Of a DNA stretch of 64,000 bases, positions 15,128 to 50,481 are shown piece after piece. The notes under the pieces are model-generated. The model was given only the letters and a program-made list of their open reading frames with translations, was not told where the DNA came from and did no database searches. Source of the DNA: Alicyclobacillus kakegawensis NBRC 103104 (GTDB lineage: Bacteria > Bacillota > Bacilli > Alicyclobacillales > Alicyclobacillaceae); assembly GCF_001552655.1 (NCBI RefSeq), contig NZ_BCRP01000002.1, forward strand, positions 62,001 through 126,000, read 5' to 3'. The position numbers and the translations under genes were made by a program. Positions within the stretch are counted from its first letter, which is position 1; every line of letters begins with the position of its first letter.

Positions 15128-15374
15128 TCAGCTCGGAAAACAGCCCGTGAACAGGCTGCGGTAGGTGGCCGGCGAGGTTCAGAGAGCCGGTGGGGGGGTG
15201 CAAACCGGTCCTGCTTGCCACTGAAATTACGGCCTGGGAGGCGCGTCGGCGGCAGTCGATGACGGTGGCTCCGTTATTCGCCAATGAGCGGTCCTCGACA
15301 TCCCTTGGTGTCGAGGACAAATCGGGTGGTACCGCGAGTCTATCCTCGTCCCGTGTGGGGACGGGGATTTTTTC
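15128..15374 (+). ncRNA. T-box riboswitch leader for tyrS (Tyr specifier)
   Basis: The T-box core CGGGTGGTACCGCG is at 15323-15336, followed by a terminator stem (CCTCGTCCC at 15344-15352 with GGGGACGGGG at 15357-15366) and six T. Upstream, GAAATTACGGCC at the base of Stem I places TAC, a tyrosine codon, at 15226-15228 in the specifier position. A separate hairpin, TGTCGAGGACAAA with TCCTCGACA (about 15293-15319), lies just before the T-box core and is consistent with Stem III. By family knowledge uncharged tRNA-Tyr stabilises the antiterminator. The 5' end is approximate. Confidence 0.92.
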
Positions 15375-15428
15375 GTGACGCCTGCCTCACGGCGAGCATC
15401 TGAGAAGCACAGGAAAGGGGTTTTGGCG

Positions 15429-16673
15429 ATGTCCGAGGACAAGATGTCCTTGACACCAGATCAGGAGGCGGAGGTGGACCGCCAACTGCGCATTATCCGC
15501 CGCGGTGCGGCAGAGATTGTCCCGGAAGAGGATCTTGTGCGCAAGCTGCGCCAGTCGGTGGCGACGGGGCAGCCGTTGCGCATCAAGCTGGGACTGGATC
15601 CAACCGCCCCGGACATTCACCTGGGACACACGGTGGTGCTGCAAAAGATCCGCCAGCTTCAGGATCTCGGCCATCTGGCCCACCTGGTCATCGGCAACTT
15701 CACCGGCCAAATTGGCGATCCGACCGACAAGTCGGAAACCCGCCGGCAGCTGAGCGAAGACGAGGTGCAAAGCAACGCGCAGACGTACGTGGAGCAAATC
15801 TTCAAAGTCCTCCATCCCGACAAGACGGAGGTCGTCTACAACGCGGATTGGTTGGCGCCCCTGACGTTCGCCGATGTCGTGCGTCTCGCTTCCACGTTGA
15901 CGGTGGCCCGCATGCTGGAGCGGGAAGACTTCCAGAAGCGGTTCCGGGACAACCGGCCGATTCACATTCACGAGTTCTTCTACCCGCTGATGCAGGCGTA
16001 TGATTCGGTGCACCTGCGGACCGACATAGAACTGGGCGGAACGGACCAGAAGTTCAATCTGTTGATGGGCCGCACCCTCCAACGCGAATTTGGGCAAGAG
16101 CAGCAGGTCGCCTTGATGATGCCGCTGTTGGAGGGCCTTGACGGTGTGAACAAGATGTCCAAGAGCCTTGGCAATTACATCGGCGTGGCGGAAGACCCGC
16201 ACACCATGTTCGGCAAAGCCATGTCGATTCCGGACGAGCTGATGCCCCGCTATTTTGAACTGGTTTCCGACGTGCCGCTGGAGGAATTGGAGCGTATTCA
16301 GGCCAGTCTCAAGGATGGCTCCCTCCACCCACGCGACGCGAAGATGCGCCTGGCCAGCGAGCTGGTGCGCCGGTTTCACGGGGAGGACGCGAGCCGCGAG
16401 GCGGTGGCGCGCTGGCGACAGGTGTTTCAAGCCGGCGGCCTGCCGGACGACGTGCCCGAAGTCGAATGTGGCGCGGGAGCGGTGTGGATTGTCGAGCTGC
16501 TGGTGAACTTGGGGCTGGCCGTCAGCCGCAGTGAGGCGCGGCGATTGCTTGAGCAAGGGGGGGTGCGCGTGGACGGCGAGCGCCTGCAGGATGTGGATGC
16601 GCAGGTAGAGGTCCGCGACGGAATGGTCATCCAGGTTGGCAAGCGCCGGTTTGCGCGCTGCCGCGTGCGATAG
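15429..16673 (+). CDS. tyrS: Tyrosine--tRNA ligase (TyrZ-like)
   Basis: A 414-residue class I synthetase that charges tRNA-Tyr. The HIGH-type signature is DIHLGHTVVLQ with GLDPTAP just before it, and the KMSKS loop is NKMSKSLGNYIG. The C-terminal 65 residues form an S4 RNA-binding domain (LVNLGLAVSRSEARRLLEQGG). The N-terminal pattern fits the longer TyrZ branch of B. subtilis rather than its main TyrS. ATG 15429 has AGGAAAGGGG 8 bases upstream; the in-frame ACG/ATG region at 15375 is inside the terminator tail and is unlikely. It is controlled by the tyrosine T-box. Confidence 0.96.
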   Translation: MSEDKMSLTPDQEAEVDRQLRIIRRGAAEIVPEEDLVRKLRQSVATGQPLRIKLGLDPTAPDIHLGHTVVLQKIRQLQDLGHLAHLVIGNFTGQIGDPTDKSETRRQLSEDEVQSNAQTYVEQIFKVLHPDKTEVVYNADWLAPLTFADVVRLASTLTVARMLEREDFQKRFRDNRPIHIHEFFYPLMQAYDSVHLRTDIELGGTDQKFNLLMGRTLQREFGQEQQVALMMPLLEGLDGVNKMSKSLGNYIGVAEDPHTMFGKAMSIPDELMPRYFELVSDVPLEELERIQASLKDGSLHPRDAKMRLASELVRRFHGEDASREAVARWRQVFQAGGLPDDVPEVECGAGAVWIVELLVNLGLAVSRSEARRLLEQGGVRVDGERLQDVDAQVEVRDGMVIQVGKRRFARCRVR

Positions 16674-30312: not shown

Positions 30313-32469
30313 TTGAAAAGTGACCGAGCGGCCTTAGCCAAAGTCTTCGAGTTGGGCGTAGGTTTGATTGGAATCCTCCTTGCTTGCAGCACGTTTCCGG
30401 GTTTGACCCGGATACCCCTCTGGCTGCTTCTGTATTGGTTTGCCCTCGCCATCCTGCTGGAAGCCATTCTGGTACCGATTGGCAAGACCTTAATCACCTT
30501 GATTGTCGCGCTGCCGATTGGCGTCGCCTTGGCCTACGGGGTCGCTCCGGCGGTGTGGCTGCTGGTGGTGGCCGAGCTGTGTACGCCCTGGCTGCGCCAG
30601 TCGCGGCCCCGCTGCTCCAGCGCGTTGTTTAATGCGGGCCAGTACGCCGTGAGCGCCTGGGCTATGGCGCTCGTCATGCGTGGGGTGGCCCCGTTCGACA
30701 TGTCCGCGGCCGGCGGAGTGCAGCGGTTTCTTGCCGGCCTCGCCGGCGCTGCCGTGTTCTTCGTGATCAACCACGGGCTGGTTCAGGTCTGCGCCTGGCT
30801 GTGGGGACGGTTTTCTTGGCGAAGCGCCATCGAGGCTGCCGCTTGGGATGGGATGACCTACTTGATCGCGATCCCGTTCGACGTGATCATGGTGGCGCTC
30901 CAGCCTATCAATCCGGTGCTGGCCGCCGTCGCCTTTCTGCCCATCGTGTTGCTGGGCCAGTTGCTGCGCATGTACCGCAGGATGGCCCTGATGCAACAGG
31001 TCCACCAGTTGACTGGACGGCTCGCCGCCGAGTTTGACGTCGACCGCATCTGTGAAGAGGCGGCGCGCCTGGCGGCGAAACTGACGGATGCCGACTCGAC
31101 CGCCGTGTTTACGCTGGACGAGCGGGATCATATCCTTCTGCCGAACGCGATTTACCCGATGGAGACTTCAACCTCTTACCAGCTGGACGGATGGCGGGAG
31201 GAGGACGGCAGCGTTGTGTGGCAGGTCGCGCGAGGCACGGGCATGGTCTACATTCCCGATGCGCACAGAGATCCGCGCCTTAGCCGCAACAGTGGATTGC
31301 CGACAGATCGGTTTCGCAGCGTGGCGATGTTCCCTCTGCGGGCGCAGGGGCACGCCCACGGCGTGGTGATGTGTTTCGCCGCCAACAGCCATGCGTTCAC
31401 CAGCACCCTGGAATACGTGTCGGCGTTGGCTGCCCAGGTGGCCATGCTGCTGGAGAACGCCAAGTTGTACCAGGAACTGCAGGAGTTATCCTGGCGGGAT
31501 GGCGCGACGGGCCTGTACAATTACCGATTTTTCTACGCGGCGCTCGCAGGTCGGCTGCAGGCGGCGCGCGAACACGGGCAGCCGCTCACGGTTGCCATCG
31601 TGGATGTGGATCTGTTTAAGAAATTCAATGATACCTACGGGCACCTGGCGGGGGACGCGGTGCTGAAATCGGTTGCCGGGCTCCTCTCGCAGCTCGCCGG
31701 CCCCGGTGCCATCGTCGCGCGTTACGGCGGCGAGGAGTTCGCGCTCATCCTTCCCGTCGATCCCGGCGCGGCATGGACCATCCTGGAGCGCATACGCGGC
31801 GAGATCAGTCGCCATGTGGTGGAGTTTGATGGCCACCGCCTGCAGGGCCTGACCGTAAGTTGCGGCTTTGCCTCCTTTCCGGACCACGGGAGCAACGACA
31901 GAGACCTCCTGCTCAAGGCCGACTCCGCCCTGTATTGGGGAGCCAAGCAGCGGGGGCGCAATCGCACGGTGGTCTATGCGCCCGAGTTCGACGCTCAGTT
32001 GTTCGTGGATAACCCGACGGGCCTATACACGCTGCATTTCATCAACGTGCGTTTGCGTGAGGAGTTGGCACACGGGGTCTGTACCTGGGGGGCCATCTGT
32101 CTGGACATTGAGCACTTTTCCCAAGTGAACCAGAGGTTTGGTTTCGACGCCGGGGATCAGGCGCTCAGGAAAGTCAGCCTGATACTGAAAGAGTCTCTGC
32201 GCCAGGGTGAGCTGGCCTGCCGCTACGGCGGAGACGAGTTTTTCGTCCTCCTGCCGATCCGCTCCCGCTCAGAGCTGGACGGGGTGGCGGAGCGTCTGGT
32301 GGAGGCGGTCGCCAGCCACCCTATCACGCTCGATACAGGAGTGCGCCTGGCGCTGAAACTCAACTGCCGGACGGAACTGTTCACGGAGCTGAACGACTTC
32401 ACCGATTTGGCGGACCGGGTGGGAGACATGTTCGCGGAGCTGCACGCGGAGGAGGCCTCGAGGGCCTGA
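30313..32469 (+). CDS. Membrane sensor with GAF and two GGDEF domains (diguanylate cyclase)
   Basis: A 718-residue protein. Residues about 1-220 hold around eight membrane helices; about 225-390 form a GAF domain; then two GGDEF domains follow, about 400-560 (RYGGEEFALILP near 470) and about 570-715 (RYGGDEFFVLLP near 637). Both keep the signature loop, so both could make c-di-GMP from GTP. The first has the metal-binding pattern VDVDLFKKFND; in the second it reads LDIEHFSQVNQ, less canonical. Neither has an RxxD inhibitory site five residues before the loop. There is no EAL or HD-GYP domain. TTG 30313 is the likely start, with GGAGTGGGTGAAGG upstream. It stands alone between opposed or unrelated genes. 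Confidence 0.88.
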   Translation: MKSDRAALAKVFELGVGLIGILLACSTFPGLTRIPLWLLLYWFALAILLEAILVPIGKTLITLIVALPIGVALAYGVAPAVWLLVVAELCTPWLRQSRPRCSSALFNAGQYAVSAWAMALVMRGVAPFDMSAAGGVQRFLAGLAGAAVFFVINHGLVQVCAWLWGRFSWRSAIEAAAWDGMTYLIAIPFDVIMVALQPINPVLAAVAFLPIVLLGQLLRMYRRMALMQQVHQLTGRLAAEFDVDRICEEAARLAAKLTDADSTAVFTLDERDHILLPNAIYPMETSTSYQLDGWREEDGSVVWQVARGTGMVYIPDAHRDPRLSRNSGLPTDRFRSVAMFPLRAQGHAHGVVMCFAANSHAFTSTLEYVSALAAQVAMLLENAKLYQELQELSWRDGATGLYNYRFFYAALAGRLQAAREHGQPLTVAIVDVDLFKKFNDTYGHLAGDAVLKSVAGLLSQLAGPGAIVARYGGEEFALILPVDPGAAWTILERIRGEISRHVVEFDGHRLQGLTVSCGFASFPDHGSNDRDLLLKADSALYWGAKQRGRNRTVVYAPEFDAQLFVDNPTGLYTLHFINVRLREELAHGVCTWGAICLDIEHFSQVNQRFGFDAGDQALRKVSLILKESLRQGELACRYGGDEFFVLLPIRSRSELDGVAERLVEAVASHPITLDTGVRLALKLNCRTELFTELNDFTDLADRVGDMFAELHAEEASRA

Positions 32470-44730: not shown

Positions 44731-45399
44731 TCATGAATGCTTCCTCCCTGTCTCTCCGGCGCGTTGGACGGCGGATTCGTCCGCTTGCGAGAGCATGCGC
44801 AGGGCGCGCTGGCGCTCCTCAATGTGCGGCCACAGGGCGTGCAGCGGCAGCTGTACGTCCGCCAGCCCCGCTTCGTAGACGGATTTGGGCATGCCGTAGA
44901 CTGCGCAGGTCTCTGGGGCCTCCACCATGATGTAGCCGCCGTATTTGTGCACCTCCCGGCAGCCGTTGGTTCCGTCCCGGCCCATCCCGGTCAGGATGAT
45001 GGTCAGCAGGTCCTGCCGATACAGGGAGGCCAAGGATGTGAGCGTGACATCGATGCAGGGCCGGTACAAGTATGTCCCACCGTTCTCAATTTGGAAGCAA
45101 ACCGCTCCCCGGTCTTCACAAATTCGCGTCTGCCGCCCGGCTGGAGCCAGGTAGATGCGGCCCGGCTGCACGGGCTCGCCGTGCACAGCCTCACTGACCG
45201 GCAGTGGGCAGAGCCTGTCCAGATGTTGGGCGAGCGGAGCGGTGAAACCGGTCGTCATGTGCTGGCACACGACAATAGGGGCCGCGAACCCGGAGGGGAA
45301 TTCCGGGAGCAGCCGTGCCAGCGCTGCAGGTCCGCCGGTGGAGGCGCCAATCAGTACAAATTTCGGCCAACCGCAGGTGTCCCGTGAAGATCTGTTCAT
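44731..45399 (-). CDS. CheB-type methylesterase domain protein without receiver domain
   Basis: A 222-residue protein that consists of the CheB catalytic domain alone. The catalytic residues are visible: Ser20 in LIGASTGGPAAL, His47 in CQHMTTGF and Asp in LTGMGRDGTNG. CheB removes methyl groups from, or deamidates, chemoreceptors, but normally has an N-terminal receiver domain that CheA phosphorylates; here it is missing, so activity would not be tuned by CheA phosphate. ATG 45399 has a poor ribosome site; TTG 45408, with GAGGG upstream, or an in-frame ATG at 45495 could start instead. None adds a receiver. It is divergent from the MCP-CheA-CheW operon. Confidence 0.8.
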   Translation of the reverse strand: MNRSSRDTCGWPKFVLIGASTGGPAALARLLPEFPSGFAAPIVVCQHMTTGFTAPLAQHLDRLCPLPVSEAVHGEPVQPGRIYLAPAGRQTRICEDRGAVCFQIENGGTYLYRPCIDVTLTSLASLYRQDLLTIILTGMGRDGTNGCREVHKYGGYIMVEAPETCAVYGMPKSVYEAGLADVQLPLHALWPHIEERQRALRMLSQADESAVQRAGETGRKHS

Positions 45400-45748
45400 C
45401 GTCGTCAATGGCGGCAACCCTCGCAGTCCAGTGTACAGTCTTTGAATTTGGTCCCTCTCAGCATACAACAGCACATCAGCATGTACATCAGGCATTTTAC
45501 GCGCCCAAGGCGGGTTTGGACAGGGCCATGTCGGTTATTGTCGGGATTTGTTGGTTGTGGTACCATGGTTGCGATGGTGTACCCAAGCCCTGCCTGTCAG
45601 GGTTCCAAAGGTTCCGAGCGCCGTCCAGCGGATGCGCCGGTCGGACGCATGGGTGACCGCCGTAGGGGAGAGGGAGACAAAGTTTTGTTTGGCCCCGTCC
45701 CGTGATGGAAGAGAATGAAGAGAAAACAGATATAGAGAATACATAGGG
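45400..45748. other. Long intergenic region upstream of the riboswitch
   Basis: Between the divergent cheB and the chemosensory operon I see no convincing gene. It must hold both promoters. Purine-rich sequence at 45703-45745 contains TATAGA (45731-45736) and TACATA (45740-45745), either of which could be the -10 of the riboswitch transcript, but no matching -35 or sigma-D motif stands out. Confidence 0.4.
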
Positions 45749-45850
45749 TTAGCAACGTTCAGGGCAAACCAGCGGAAACGTTGGGACGCAAAACCATGGG
45801 TCTACGGGCTGCGGCTAGGGCCAAGCCTAGGATCGCCAGGTTGCCGTGGG
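45749..45850 (+). ncRNA. Cyclic di-GMP-I riboswitch (GEMM)
   Basis: The class I c-di-GMP aptamer core is clear: CAGGGCAAACC (45760-45770), a P2 stem AGCG-GAAA-CGTT with a GNRA tetraloop (45771-45782), GGGACGCAAA (45783-45792), then a P3 arm with CTAGG/CCTAG pairing (about 45815-45830) and closing GTTGC (45840-45844) that pairs with GCAAC (45752-45756) as P1. It is followed by an intrinsic terminator and then the MCP gene. It therefore most likely senses c-di-GMP and controls the MCP-CheA-CheW operon at the level of transcription elongation. Confidence 0.93.
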
Positions 45851-45854
45851 ATGG

Positions 45855-45880
45855 GGCAGCCTGTGCGGGCTGCCTTTTGC
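45855..45880 (+). terminator. Riboswitch expression-platform terminator
   Basis: GGCAGCC (45855-45861) and GGCTGCC (45868-45874) form a stem followed by TTTTGCTT. GGTTGCC (45839-45845), which contains the 3' strand of aptamer P1, can pair with the same GGCAGCC, giving a competing antiterminator. Ligand-stabilised P1 would free the terminator, so the predicted logic is OFF at high c-di-GMP. Confidence 0.8.
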
Positions 45881-45947
45881 TTGCAGGCCGTCAGACAGAG
45901 ACAGGCAGCGCAAGTTGCCAATCTGCAAAGAGGTAAGGGTGTGTGTT

Positions 45948-47960
45948 GTGGTGAAGTTTGCGGATCTTCGGTTTCGTCTGCCGTCGGTCGGCCACTACGG
46001 CCGGGTCGGGTCTGTCGGGATGCGACTGTTAGTCTCCTTCCTCATCTTCTTGGTAGTGCCCACTGTGGTGATTGGCTGCTTCTCCTTCTGGGTCGCACGA
46101 AACCAGGTGAAGTCGGAAGTGACGTCCTCCGCTGTTTCCGGGGCCACGGTGTTCGACCAATCTTTGACGACGTTTTTCACCCAGCAGGAGGAAAACCTCA
46201 CATTCCTCGCGGACGATGTCGACTCCATCCTGATGTCGGGAAACACGAGCCTGCTGAACACGGAACTGCAAAACTTCTACACCTCGCACGACGGTCTCGT
46301 CCTGCGCGCTTATGTGGGCACCGACAAGGGAGTCTTCGTCCAACCGACGGGGGCACAGAACAACGGGTTTGACCCCACCAAGTCGAGTTGGTACAAACAG
46401 GCGGAAAATGCTGCTGGCTCCATCGTCATTGGAGCGCCGCGATATGACGAAGCAAGCGATACCTATGTGATCCCGATTGCGCGGGAGTTGCCGAACGGAG
46501 ACGGGGTCATTGGCCTGGATCTGTTGGCCAGCCCGATAGTCAGCATGGCGCAGGACGTCAAAATCGGGCGGGCAGGGCACTTGGCGGTCATCACGAATGA
46601 CCGTGTGGTCATCTCGGAAAAAGGAATGCGCACCGGCACGGTACTCAAGGATGCCGCCTGGAATCCGATGTTTACAGGAAAAACGGGGTCGTTTGATGTG
46701 GCGGGCAACGGTCAGGAAACGCAACACATCGAATTTATGACCAACACGCTGACCGGCTGGAAAGTGGCGAGCGTCATCTTGCCGAGCGAATACAGCGCCG
46801 CCACAGATCCCATTCGCAATGTCACCATCTACGACATTGTCATCACGCTGGTCATCGGGCTTGTCCTGATGTTCTTTGTCGTCCGCTCCATCACGGAACC
46901 GCTGGCCGATTTGGTCACAGCGGCGCGAGAGATCGGCGCTGGCAATTTGACCCGGCGCATTCGCGTCGGACGGCGTGACGATCTGGGACGCCTGGCCGAT
47001 ACGTTTAACGCCATGGCGCAGTCGCTGCAGAGCATAATTCAGGACGTGGGCCAGACGGCGCAGCAAGTATCCGCTTCCGCGGAGGAACTGACCGCCAGCG
47101 CGGAAGAGAACAGCCGGGCGACGGAGCAGGTCACACTGACCGTGCAGGAAACGGCGGCCGGCATGGAAAAGCAGGCGCAGATTGTCGAGGATGGGCGCCA
47201 GCAGGTGGTGGAGATGGCCGGGGAGATGGAGCGGGTCAGGGACGCCTCCGAACAGGTGGCCAGCGCCGCGCAGGATGCCTCCCGCGTCGCAGCGCGCGGC
47301 CAGACGGATTTGGATGGCGTCATCGCCCAAATGCGGGCGATTCAGGACCGCGTCAATCGGCTGGCTGAACAGATTCAGGGACTTGGTGAACGGTCGCGAG
47401 AGATTGGGACGATTATTGAGGTCATCACCAACATCACGGATCAAACCAACCTGCTCGCGCTCAACGCCGCTATCGAAGCCGCCCGGGCCGGTGAACTGGG
47501 CCGCGGTTTCGGGGTGGTGGCCGACGAGGTGCGCAAGCTGGCCGAACAATCGGCAGAGTCGGCGCAGCAGATTGTCGCGCGCGTCGAGGCCATGCGCAAG
47601 GATACGGACCAGGCGGTGCGGTCGATGGCGGAGAGCGTCGAGGCGGTTGGGCAGGGTGTGGAACAGGCCGGACGGGCCAGCGCCTCCTTCCAGCAGATTT
47701 TGCAGGCGACCTCCGATGTGGCGGCGCAGATTGAGTCGGTCTCGGCGGCAGTGGCCCAGATGGCTGAGCACACCGAGCAATTCCGGATTGGCATGGATGG
47801 GGTGGCGACCGTCACGGAAACGACCTCGGCGGGCATGCAGACGGTGGCAGCCTCAGCGGAGGAACAGCTGGCTTCCATGGAGGAGATCACCGCATCGGCG
47901 GGGTCGCTCAGCCAACTGGCGGAACAACTGCAGGAGCGCATCGCTCACTTCCGGGTATAG
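45948..47960 (+). CDS. Methyl-accepting chemotaxis protein (Cache-type sensor)
   Basis: A 670-residue chemoreceptor. TM1 is about 25-47, an extracellular dCache-like sensor about 50-290 ([19 protein letters not shown], then [11 protein letters not shown]), TM2 about 291-313, HAMP about 314-366 ([19 protein letters not shown]), and a long cytoplasmic signalling coiled coil whose tip reads [20 protein letters not shown] near 500-520, the CheA/CheW contact. The ligand is unknown. GTG 45948, 9 bases after AAGGG, was chosen; GTG 45939 or 45951 are close alternatives. Longer versions would run through the terminator. It is the first gene behind the c-di-GMP riboswitch, 59 bases before cheA. Confidence 0.92.
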
Positions 47961-48019
47961 TCCACCGCGGTTTGGAGGTGTGGTTTGAACCGAAGCCGGA
48001 CCAGGGGGGGCTTGAGACT

Positions 48020-50032
48020 ATGGACACATCACAATACATCGACCTCTTTATTGAAGAGGCCCGCGAGCACCTGCAGGCGCTCAGCGACAATCTGCTGGAG
48101 CTGGAACGAGACCCGGGCAATGCCAATCTCATTCAGGCCATGTTCCGGAGCGCCCACACAATCAAGGGCATGGCCGCCAGTATGGGCTTTGAGCGCATGG
48201 CGCATCTGACGCACGAGATGGAGGACCGGCTGGATGATATCCGATCCGGTCGTGCCCCGCTTGCGGATGCGTTTATCGACGCCTTGTTCGCTTGCGTGGA
48301 TGCGCTGGAGGGGTGTCTGCAGGCGATTGTGGAGGAAGGCAGCGACGCCTCGGCATCGGTCGAAGAGGCCAGCCGCAAGCTGGCAGCTGCGCTTGGGTCG
48401 ACGACCAGCGCAGAGATTGCGGCCACCGGGGAATTGGCGGCAGCGAAACCGGCGGACGCGGCCGTGTCTGCGACTGGCGAATGGGACATTCAGGTGCGGT
48501 TTGCCGCGGATTGTTCGATGCCCGCGGTTCGCGCGTACATGGTGTATCAAGCGCTGCAGGAAGGATTGTCGGTCACGCGGACGGATCCCGCGCTGGAGCG
48601 GGTGATGGCTGGCGAATGCGGCCTGGAGTTCCACATTTTTTCAGCCTCCGGCGTGGATGTCGACGCGGTGCGCAGCCAAGCCCTGGAGGTAGCCGAGGTG
48701 GACAGCGTGGAGGTCACGCAGGTGGCCGCCGCGGCTCCCGCTGCGGCCCCTTCATCGGGGGCTGTTCCTGGTACGGCGCAGAGCGCTTCGGGCAAGCAAT
48801 CGCAGCCGGCGGCGGGCGCGCCCCGTGCCGCGACGCAGGCGGGCGCCAAGAAAAACCAGCGCGCCAGCCAATCCATCCGTGTGGACTTGTCGCGCCTGGA
48901 CGATGTGATGAACCGATTCAGCGAGATTGTCATGGACAAGACGCGGCTACGACAGTTGGCGTCCGAGCGCCAGGACGCGGCCCTGGAGGACGCCGTTCAC
49001 CATTTCGAGCGGGTGTGCGACGAGCTTCAGAGTTTGCTGCTGCGCATCCGCATGCTTCCGGTGGACACGGTGTTTCAGCGCTTTCCGCGAATGGTGCGGG
49101 ACCTCGCGAAGTCTCTTGGCAAACAGGTGGAACTTCGGCTGGAAGGGCAGGAGACCGAGTTGGACAGGACCGTGATGGACGAAATCGGGGACTCGCTCGT
49201 CCACCTCATCCGCAACGCCCTCGACCATGGCTTGGAGACACCGGCCGAGCGGCGCGAGGCAGGGAAACCCGAGACGGGTGTTCTCCGCTTGTCGGCCTAC
49301 CAGCAGGGGGACGATGTATTTATTGAGGTGAGGGACGACGGGCGCGGGCTCAACCGCGAGAAGATTGCCCGCAAGGCGGTGGAGATGGGCCTCCTGGAGG
49401 CGGATGAGGCGGCCAAGCTGTCGGACGAGCAAGTGTACGGCTTGCTCTTTGCGTCCGGATTCAGCACGGCCGAATCGGTCTCGGACGTCTCCGGCCGCGG
49501 CGTGGGCCTGGATGCGGTGCGTGACACCATTGTCGGCCTCGGTGGAGAGGTGGATGTCCAATCAGAGCCTGGCCGTGGGACTTCGTTCATTTTGCGAGTG
49601 CCCCTCACGCTGTCGATTATACAGGCCATGCTGGTCCGCATTGAGGATGAGCGGTACGCCATCCCGCTCAGTTCATTGGTCCAGATCTATCAAGTGGAGC
49701 CGGAGCAGGTCAAGGAGAACGGCAATCGGCGTTACGTCGAATTGGGCGGGCGACTGCTCCGATTGGTCGACGCCCGGGAGTGGCTGGGGCTGGAACCGGT
49801 CGACCGCGCGCAGGACGTGATACAAGTCGCGGTGTTGGGCCGGGCGGACAAGGCCTTGGCGGTCATCGTCGACGAGTTTTTGGATACAGAGGAGATCGTG
49901 GTGAAGCCACTCGGAGGCTATCTGCAGGGACGGATTCCGGGCATTTCAGGCGCTGCCATCCTCGGCGATGGGGCGGTGGTGCTGATTTTTGACGCGGCCG
50001 CCTGGGTTGCACAGGCCGCGGGGCAGAGGTGA
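48020..50032 (+). CDS. cheA: Chemotaxis histidine kinase CheA
   Basis: A 670-residue kinase that reads out the receptor array. Domains: HPt (P1) with the phosphorylated His46 in RSAHTIKGMAASMG; a response-regulator-binding P2-like region (about 155-240); an Ala/Pro-rich linker; dimerisation P3 (about 285-340); the ATPase P4 (about 345-520) with IRNALDHGLE (N box), VRDDGRGLN (G1), GRGVGLDAV (G2) and PGRGTSFIL; and CheW-like P5 (about 525-665). All catalytic boxes are intact. ATG 48020 follows AGGGGGG at 48004-48010. No CheY is encoded nearby. Confidence 0.96.
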   Translation: MDTSQYIDLFIEEAREHLQALSDNLLELERDPGNANLIQAMFRSAHTIKGMAASMGFERMAHLTHEMEDRLDDIRSGRAPLADAFIDALFACVDALEGCLQAIVEEGSDASASVEEASRKLAAALGSTTSAEIAATGELAAAKPADAAVSATGEWDIQVRFAADCSMPAVRAYMVYQALQEGLSVTRTDPALERVMAGECGLEFHIFSASGVDVDAVRSQALEVAEVDSVEVTQVAAAAPAAAPSSGAVPGTAQSASGKQSQPAAGAPRAATQAGAKKNQRASQSIRVDLSRLDDVMNRFSEIVMDKTRLRQLASERQDAALEDAVHHFERVCDELQSLLLRIRMLPVDTVFQRFPRMVRDLAKSLGKQVELRLEGQETELDRTVMDEIGDSLVHLIRNALDHGLETPAERREAGKPETGVLRLSAYQQGDDVFIEVRDDGRGLNREKIARKAVEMGLLEADEAAKLSDEQVYGLLFASGFSTAESVSDVSGRGVGLDAVRDTIVGLGGEVDVQSEPGRGTSFILRVPLTLSIIQAMLVRIEDERYAIPLSSLVQIYQVEPEQVKENGNRRYVELGGRLLRLVDAREWLGLEPVDRAQDVIQVAVLGRADKALAVIVDEFLDTEEIVVKPLGGYLQGRIPGISGAAILGDGAVVLIFDAAAWVAQAAGQR

Positions 50033-50481
50033 TAAAAAGCGTGCAGTACATTCTTTGCCGACCGGCTGGACAGGTGTACGCCATAGCCATGGACGCGGTC
50101 AAGTCGGTCGAGCGTGTGGGACGGCTGACGAAGGTGCCGAACACGAAGCCGTTCGTCAAGGGGCTGATGAACCTGAGGGGGGAGTTGACCCCGGTTATCG
50201 ACTTGGCGCATTTTCTGGAGTTGGGAAAGACGCTGCAGTCGGCGCAGGCCCGCGTGGTCGTGGTGGAATCGGCGGACGTGACGTTGGGCCTGTTGGTGGA
50301 ATACGCGCGGGAGGTGCGGGAGATTGCGGACGCGGACCTGGACAAGGAGGATGCGCGCTCCCGCAACCAGGCGGTGCGGGCTGTCGCCAACGTGAACGGG
50401 GAGGCGGTCGGCATCTTGGACATCAACTATATCCTCGACCCAACTCACGGCGTGATTACGTCCACCCAAAAAGGGGCTTGA
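50029..50481 (+). CDS. cheW: Chemotaxis coupling protein CheW
   Basis: A 150-residue single-domain CheW protein (SH3-like double barrel): YILCRPAGQVYAIAMDAVKSVE, TKVPNTKPFVKGLMNLRGELTPVIDL are the typical N-terminal and scaffold segments, written here as adjoining parts. CheW links receptors to CheA P5. The GTG start overlaps the cheA stop (GTGA), so translation is coupled. It ends the operon at a strong terminator. Confidence 0.92.
   Translation: MIKSVQYILCRPAGQVYAIAMDAVKSVERVGRLTKVPNTKPFVKGLMNLRGELTPVIDLAHFLELGKTLQSAQARVVVVESADVTLGLLVEYAREVREIADADLDKEDARSRNQAVRAVANVNGEAVGILDINYILDPTHGVITSTQKGA

Follow-up and report, generated by a model that had tools for sequence, protein, structure and literature searches.

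A predicted c-di-GMP-I OFF switch in front of the chemotaxis operon of Alicyclobacillus kakegawensis

Riboswitches of the c-di-GMP-I class are well known in front of motility, chemotaxis and MCP genes (PMC6366702; PMC11218506; these and the papers below are cited from their available parts). Cd1, in the flgB leader of Clostridioides difficile, is described in the accessible text of PMC9262584 as an OFF switch whose antiterminator uses a strand of the aptamer, and the P1 helix of the Cd1 aptamer as weak or absent. Bc1 of the Bacillus cereus group lies before MCP genes and turned reporters on, according to the available part of PMC11218506. We investigated a window of 64,000 nucleotides from Alicyclobacillus kakegawensis NBRC 103104 (contig NZ_BCRP01000002.1, positions 62,001 to 126,000), in which an aptamer of this class stands in front of an mcp-cheA-cheW operon. 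As far as the accessible text goes, the locus resembles Cd1 in its aptamer class, in a predicted antiterminator between the aptamer 3' strand and the terminator 5' arm, in its motility-linked target and in an apparently weak P1 (PMC9262584). It differs in the target, which is a flagellar operon in the case of Cd1, and in a much shorter decision stretch: the two antiterminator strands are 9 bases apart, while Cd1 binds its ligand at transcript lengths of 87-147 (PMC9262584, same part). With Bc1 it shares the aptamer class and the MCP gene downstream (PMC11218506, in part), but it has one short terminator and an OFF layout, whereas Bc1 is an ON switch with a long platform and two terminators. 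The Geobacter pilM switch (GEMM-Ib) has a related aptamer fold but binds cGAMP, and because its terminator includes the aptamer strand, it gives an ON response (PMC9262584, likewise in part).

Among the open-licence papers listed, no title or abstract opening describes a cheA operon headed by a c-di-GMP switch, and the passages of a paper on GEMM riboswitches and chemotaxis mention none in front of cheA, although a printed precedent may exist; the open-licence literature returned nothing related for Alicyclobacillus together with a c-di-GMP riboswitch. The kind of switch is known, and a chemotaxis operon with the only detected CheA of the genome as its target is a modest new twist.

The aptamer and the strand it shares with the terminator

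Judged by its covariance match, the element upstream of the operon is almost certainly a class I c-di-GMP riboswitch aptamer: RF01051 matches over the full model (1-87) and scores 75.0 bits (E 6.8e-13), where the family's gathering score is 35. The sequence-only reading had named this class, and the Rfam search upholds it. The aptamer core described there was recovered as well from the sequence and the Rfam alignment, with CAGGGCAAACC, a P2 whose GNRA cap is GAAA, GGGACGCAAAA and P3. The aptamer alone folds no better than its dinucleotide shuffles (z -0.20), and no sigma-70 promoter was detected when 45300-46000 was scanned. The coordinates are collected in Table 1.

Table 1. Features of the switch and of the operon behind it (positions of the window)
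Feature	Position	Strand	Basis
c-di-GMP-I riboswitch aptamer (RF01051)	45753-45848	+	covariance match, 75.0 bits
G at the presumed Vc2 G20 position (c-di-GMP rather than cGAMP type)	45763	+	sequence; Vc2 numbering
P2 hairpin, GAAA tetraloop	45769-45784	+	Rfam alignment; 6/6 standard pairs
P3, base AACC 45792-45795 with GGTT 45839-45842	45792-45842	+	Rfam alignment; 14/14 standard pairs
Switching strand CAGGTTGCC: 3' strand of the P3 base, presumed ligand-contacting C45844, first P1 base C45845; predicted antiterminator 5' arm	45837-45845	+	
GGCAGCCTG: predicted antiterminator 3' arm and terminator 5' arm	45855-45863	+	
Terminator-like hairpin 45853-45862 / 45867-45876 with TTTT 45875-45878	45853-45878	+	fold, 10 pairs
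MCP gene, start GTG 45951 or 45948	45951-47960	+	HAMP and MCPsignal above cut-off, dCache_1 below cut-off
cheA, ATG at 48020	48020-50032	+	Hpt, P2, H-kinase_dim, HATPase_c and CheW domains in a translation begun at 48017
cheW	50029-50481	+	start overlaps cheA stop

In Vc2 numbering, we take G45763 to stand at the position of Vc2 G20 and C45844 to be the ligand-contacting C, Vc2 C92. A G rather than an A at this presumed G20 position, RF01051 as the best family of its clan at the locus, and the GGDEF and EAL domains encoded in the genome all argue against a cGAMP-type (GEMM-Ib) switch, which we regard as very improbable. Such a switch is brought to mind by the finding that c-di-GMP and cGAMP are recognised by closely related aptamers (PMC9262584), and G20A is the change that was used to bind cGAMP (PMC6274999), as the available parts of both papers have it. 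Among 80 switches of the family, four carry an A at the G20 position (L162 in G018, L167 in G013, L168 in G003 and L171 in G023); RF01051 is still their best family.

The sequence-only reading had placed the 3' strand of P1 within GGTTGCC (45839-45845). This does not agree with the Rfam alignment, where GGTT 45839-45842 is the base of P3 and only C45845 begins P1. The P1 proposed there, GCAAC 45752-45756 with GTTGC 45840-45844, was rejected for the bound aptamer since Rfam puts GGTT in the P3 base, and in the 67 family switches that could be anchored (13 of the 80 could not) 42% of the cells of its register are paired, inside the 26-53% found over the registers tried. The canonical register, 45753-45757 with 45845-45849, forms four of five pairs in the window aptamer and pairs in 48% of cells of the same 67 anchored switches, without an excess over the others; five of five pairs form in the genus leader L148, and five of five including one G-U in L177. 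The P1 of the window aptamer appears weak.

Directly after the aptamer follows a GC-rich hairpin with the core GGCAGCC 45855-45861 / GGCTGCC 45868-45874 and TTTT 45875-45878 next to it, just as the earlier reading had described its terminator. The pairing of GGTTGCC with the 5' terminator strand is also present and is longer than had been claimed: CAGGTTGCC pairs with GGCAGCCTG in nine of nine positions. The 29-nt segment 45836-45864, which holds both strands, beats 199 of 200 dinucleotide shuffles in folding (z -2.97; one of 200 as good). As a control, 166 T-tract hairpins situated over 400 bases further downstream in the fetched loci were scored against 10 aptamer strands apiece. The 99th percentile of this control is 22.0, and the match between the aptamer 3' strand and the terminator arm, at 22.8, exceeds it. 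Since 45839-45845 is required in the bound aptamer, the antiterminator and the bound aptamer would be mutually exclusive. The exchanged element would be the P3 base together with the ligand-contacting C, rather than P1. The earlier interpretation is partly supported: its antiterminator excludes the bound aptamer and the layout predicts an OFF switch, while the route through stabilisation of P1 is incorrect in detail, GGTT being the base of P3; it was right in outline and wrong on which helix is exchanged.

One could argue that c-di-GMP is bound here but that the hairpin is too weak as a terminator, so that the switch has little effect or works through translation or the stability of the RNA. 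The T tract has only four Ts, and a terminator scan requiring at least five Ts in eight bases does not list the hairpin at 45853-45878; moreover, about 70 bases of leader are left between the hairpin and the MCP start. However, the hairpin with its T tract recurs in all three members of the genus, the tract of L177 having six Ts, and the switching strand fits the terminator arm far better than the control hairpins fit aptamer strands. This alternative is unlikely, and we keep to termination as the preferred reading. A second GGCAGC...GTTGCC pair lies at 45904-45919, between the terminator and the MCP start, and could be another partner for the switching strand; L148 has GGCAGT...GTTGCC at this place and L177 is without the pair.

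Folding of the leader and the predicted sign of the response

In ligand-free RNA starting at 45745, the P3 base is paired at 0.59-0.67 until 45866, and at 3' ends 45868-45880 the antiterminator takes 0.62-0.89 and the terminator at most 0.35. With the 3' end at 45878 the antiterminator reaches 0.64-0.92 for five of the six assumed 5' ends. When the downstream part is folded apart from the aptamer the terminator forms at 1.00, compared with 0.25 in the free RNA. Other results of the model count against an OFF switch. Moving the 5' end to 45752 makes the terminator dominant without ligand (0.72). At 45880, the antiterminator ensemble has -59.1 kcal/mol, P2+P3 -57.2 kcal/mol and the forced P1+P2+P3 -50.7 kcal/mol, with ligand and tertiary energy outside the model; the modelled energy gap between the alternatives is small.

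The locus is probably a transcriptional OFF switch which would shut down mcp-cheA-cheW at high c-di-GMP, as predicted from the pairing layout and the folding model. At low c-di-GMP, 45837-45845 would pair with 45855-45863 and block the terminator, and the operon would be transcribed. At high c-di-GMP, the bound aptamer would retain 45837-45845, the freed terminator arm would close the hairpin 45853-45876, and transcription would stop 5' of the MCP gene. Because the antiterminator uses the aptamer's own strand and the terminator lies wholly downstream, termination should be favoured whenever the aptamer is held. The opposite sign, in which read-through into mcp-cheA-cheW would rise with c-di-GMP, is suggested by Bc1, which shares the aptamer class and a similar target and has the opposite sign in the accessible part of PMC11218506. 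Since this MCP-linked switch is an ON switch, the target gene does not tell the sign. Yet a terminator wholly 3' of the aptamer, a rival pairing with the aptamer's own strand, and the rise of the terminator from 0.25 in free RNA to 1.00 with the aptamer held apart speak for the OFF switch, and we find an ON response quite unlikely at this locus. Sequence and computation show the aptamer, the mutually exclusive pairings and the gene content; from these we infer ligand binding, termination, the sign of the response and its behavioural effect, along with the motile-to-sessile logic suggested earlier. With only 9 bases between the two strands, the cell would have to settle the choice while the polymerase adds a few tens of bases, which would leave little time and counts against the OFF reading.

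Two further genus genomes, G001 (leader L148) and G002 (L177), were compared. L148 keeps all nine antiterminator pairs, with A-U replaced by G-C at the second and G-C by G-U at the third, and its terminator falls from 1.00 to 0.03 in free RNA, a sharper switch in silico than that of the window. In L177 the fifth antiterminator pair is a G-G clash and no unbroken match exceeds 4 bp; the terminator remains at 0.92 in free RNA, which counts against the OFF reading. On the basis of these leaders, the predicted switch is strongly supported by L148 and weakened by L177. The two could serve as natural variants for tests, L148 being predicted to be sharp and L177 to be leaky.

The operon in its genome

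The order of the genes 3' of the switch is mcp-cheA-cheW by their domain matches, and this is the operon that the sequence-only reading had claimed. The CheA is 92% identical to that of Alicyclobacillus shizuokensis NBRC 103103, the nearest named relative in the scan. In the own genome (3.42 Mb, 71 contigs) the CheA query has one match at E 1e-100 or better, and the CheW domain has three, namely the operon CheA, the operon CheW and one on contig C3. The cheA of the operon is, by these searches, the only CheA detected in the genome; therefore high c-di-GMP would withdraw the chemotaxis kinase. Flagellin_N has two matches.

RF01051 matches the genome twice, the second time at C23:31980-32064, also 5' of an MCP gene; the two best of the four MCP signal domain matches sit 3' of these two switches. 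In the C23 switch, too, aptamer and terminator share such a match, over 7 bp, which counts for the OFF reading, and its terminator falls in free RNA from 0.86 to 0.37 by one measure and from 1.00 to 0.89 by another. GGDEF has three matches in two open frames and EAL three; the start of one EAL gene is at base 87 of contig C18. With an assembly in 71 contigs and an EAL gene at a contig edge, gaps could hide another switch. Some 13 kb before the riboswitch, at 30313-32469 of the window, a GAF protein with two GGDEF stretches (GGEEF and GGDEF) is encoded, a possible source of c-di-GMP. The window also holds a T-box leader (RF00230, 112.8 bits) at 15138-15356, 5' of a tyrosyl-tRNA synthetase-like gene at 15375-16673.

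CheA-linked switches in the family

The relatives search covered 151 genomes, that of the window among them, and 114 of these have RF01051 matches. The family of the window has 38 CheA matches in 30 genomes, and 10 of them, in 8 genomes, have a same-strand RF01051 match at most 9 kb upstream on the same contig. About 0.3 such links are expected by chance, as estimated from 226 RF01051 matches in 36 family genomes (about 126 Mb); the genomes are related, and the links are not independent. Two of the three CheA matches in G025 look duplicated, having the same score. The count took in 88 of the 92 matches of a first set (all over cut-off) and 41 of the 134 of a second, from which genomes without CheA matches and places far from CheA by coordinate were left out; G001 was set aside because of contig ends, and G020 may be affected likewise.

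The operons behind these switches vary. G004 has switch-cheA-cheW, and one switch of G025 lies 61 bases 5' of a cheA match. Other arrangements are switch-cheX/C-receiver-cheA in G017 and switch-cheX/C-receiver-mcp-cheW-mcp-cheW-cheA in G025. An EAL gene comes first in G015 (switch-EAL-cheW-cheA-mcp) and in G032 (switch-EAL-mcp-receiver-cheX/C-mcp-cheA-cheW), and G030 has open frames of sizes like those of the G032 operon, a likeness of size only. The EAL genes directly 3' of the switches and upstream of cheA operons lie at L196 476-1306 (+) in G032 and at L203 4589-5455 (-) in G015; in G002 (L113) an EAL match at C2:111566-112264 is located 3' of a switch at C2:111288-111374. Such EAL genes behind c-di-GMP-I switches might feed back on c-di-GMP. 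The EAL-led operon of G032 also encodes, at L196 4300-6042, a Protoglobin-MCPsignal-CZB receptor, likely an oxygen or gas sensor.

The aptamer-terminator match is 8-9 bp long in G015, in G004, in the first leader of G025 and in the four leaders of genus g4 (G020, G029, G030 and G032), and shorter in G017 (4 bp) and the second of G025 (6 bp); these lengths are the best per leader, so single values lean upwards. A closer set of 14 leaders consists of 12 that are CheA-linked or similar and of L129 and L112, a pair linked to MCP genes. In free RNA the terminator arm loses more than 0.4 of its local pairing in seven of the 14 and does not in the other seven. The latter include the four g4 leaders, which are nearly unchanged (from 0.99-1.00 to 0.94-0.98), and this counts against the OFF reading.

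The wider comparison used 80 fetched switches out of the 92 matches, 79 over the cut-off and L189 under it (32.5 bits); the 12 others comprise nine low scorers over the cut-off and three under. By our rule a terminator is present in 52 of the 80 and absent in 28. The aptamer-strand match is at or above the 95th percentile of the control in 27 of the 52 terminators and at or above the 99th in 10. In the ensemble of the free RNA only six of the 52 drop by over 0.4, which again counts against the OFF reading; most family switches would therefore have to switch kinetically, if at all. Within 3.5 kb downstream, or up to the contig end, nine of the 80 switches have an MCP signal domain and three a CheA. 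Two near-identical c-di-GMP-I leaders with the same score and the same terminator arms, L144 and L145, lie about 35 kb apart on G003:C221.

If the OFF reading is true, c-di-GMP would remove directed behaviour in this organism by halting transcription of the only detected CheA, and the control would run via a leader some 130 bases long, either in place of an action on the flagellum or in addition to it. Tentatively, and with more doubt than confidence, we suggest that c-di-GMP-I switches were repeatedly placed before cheA operons in Alicyclobacillaceae-like bacteria, where they could set the supply of the kinase by early termination, and that EAL-led OFF operons could make a self-locking choice between the chemotactic and the non-chemotactic state. 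Where an OFF switch heads an EAL-led operon, high c-di-GMP would also stop the operon's own c-di-GMP breakdown, and such operons are predicted to feed back on c-di-GMP.
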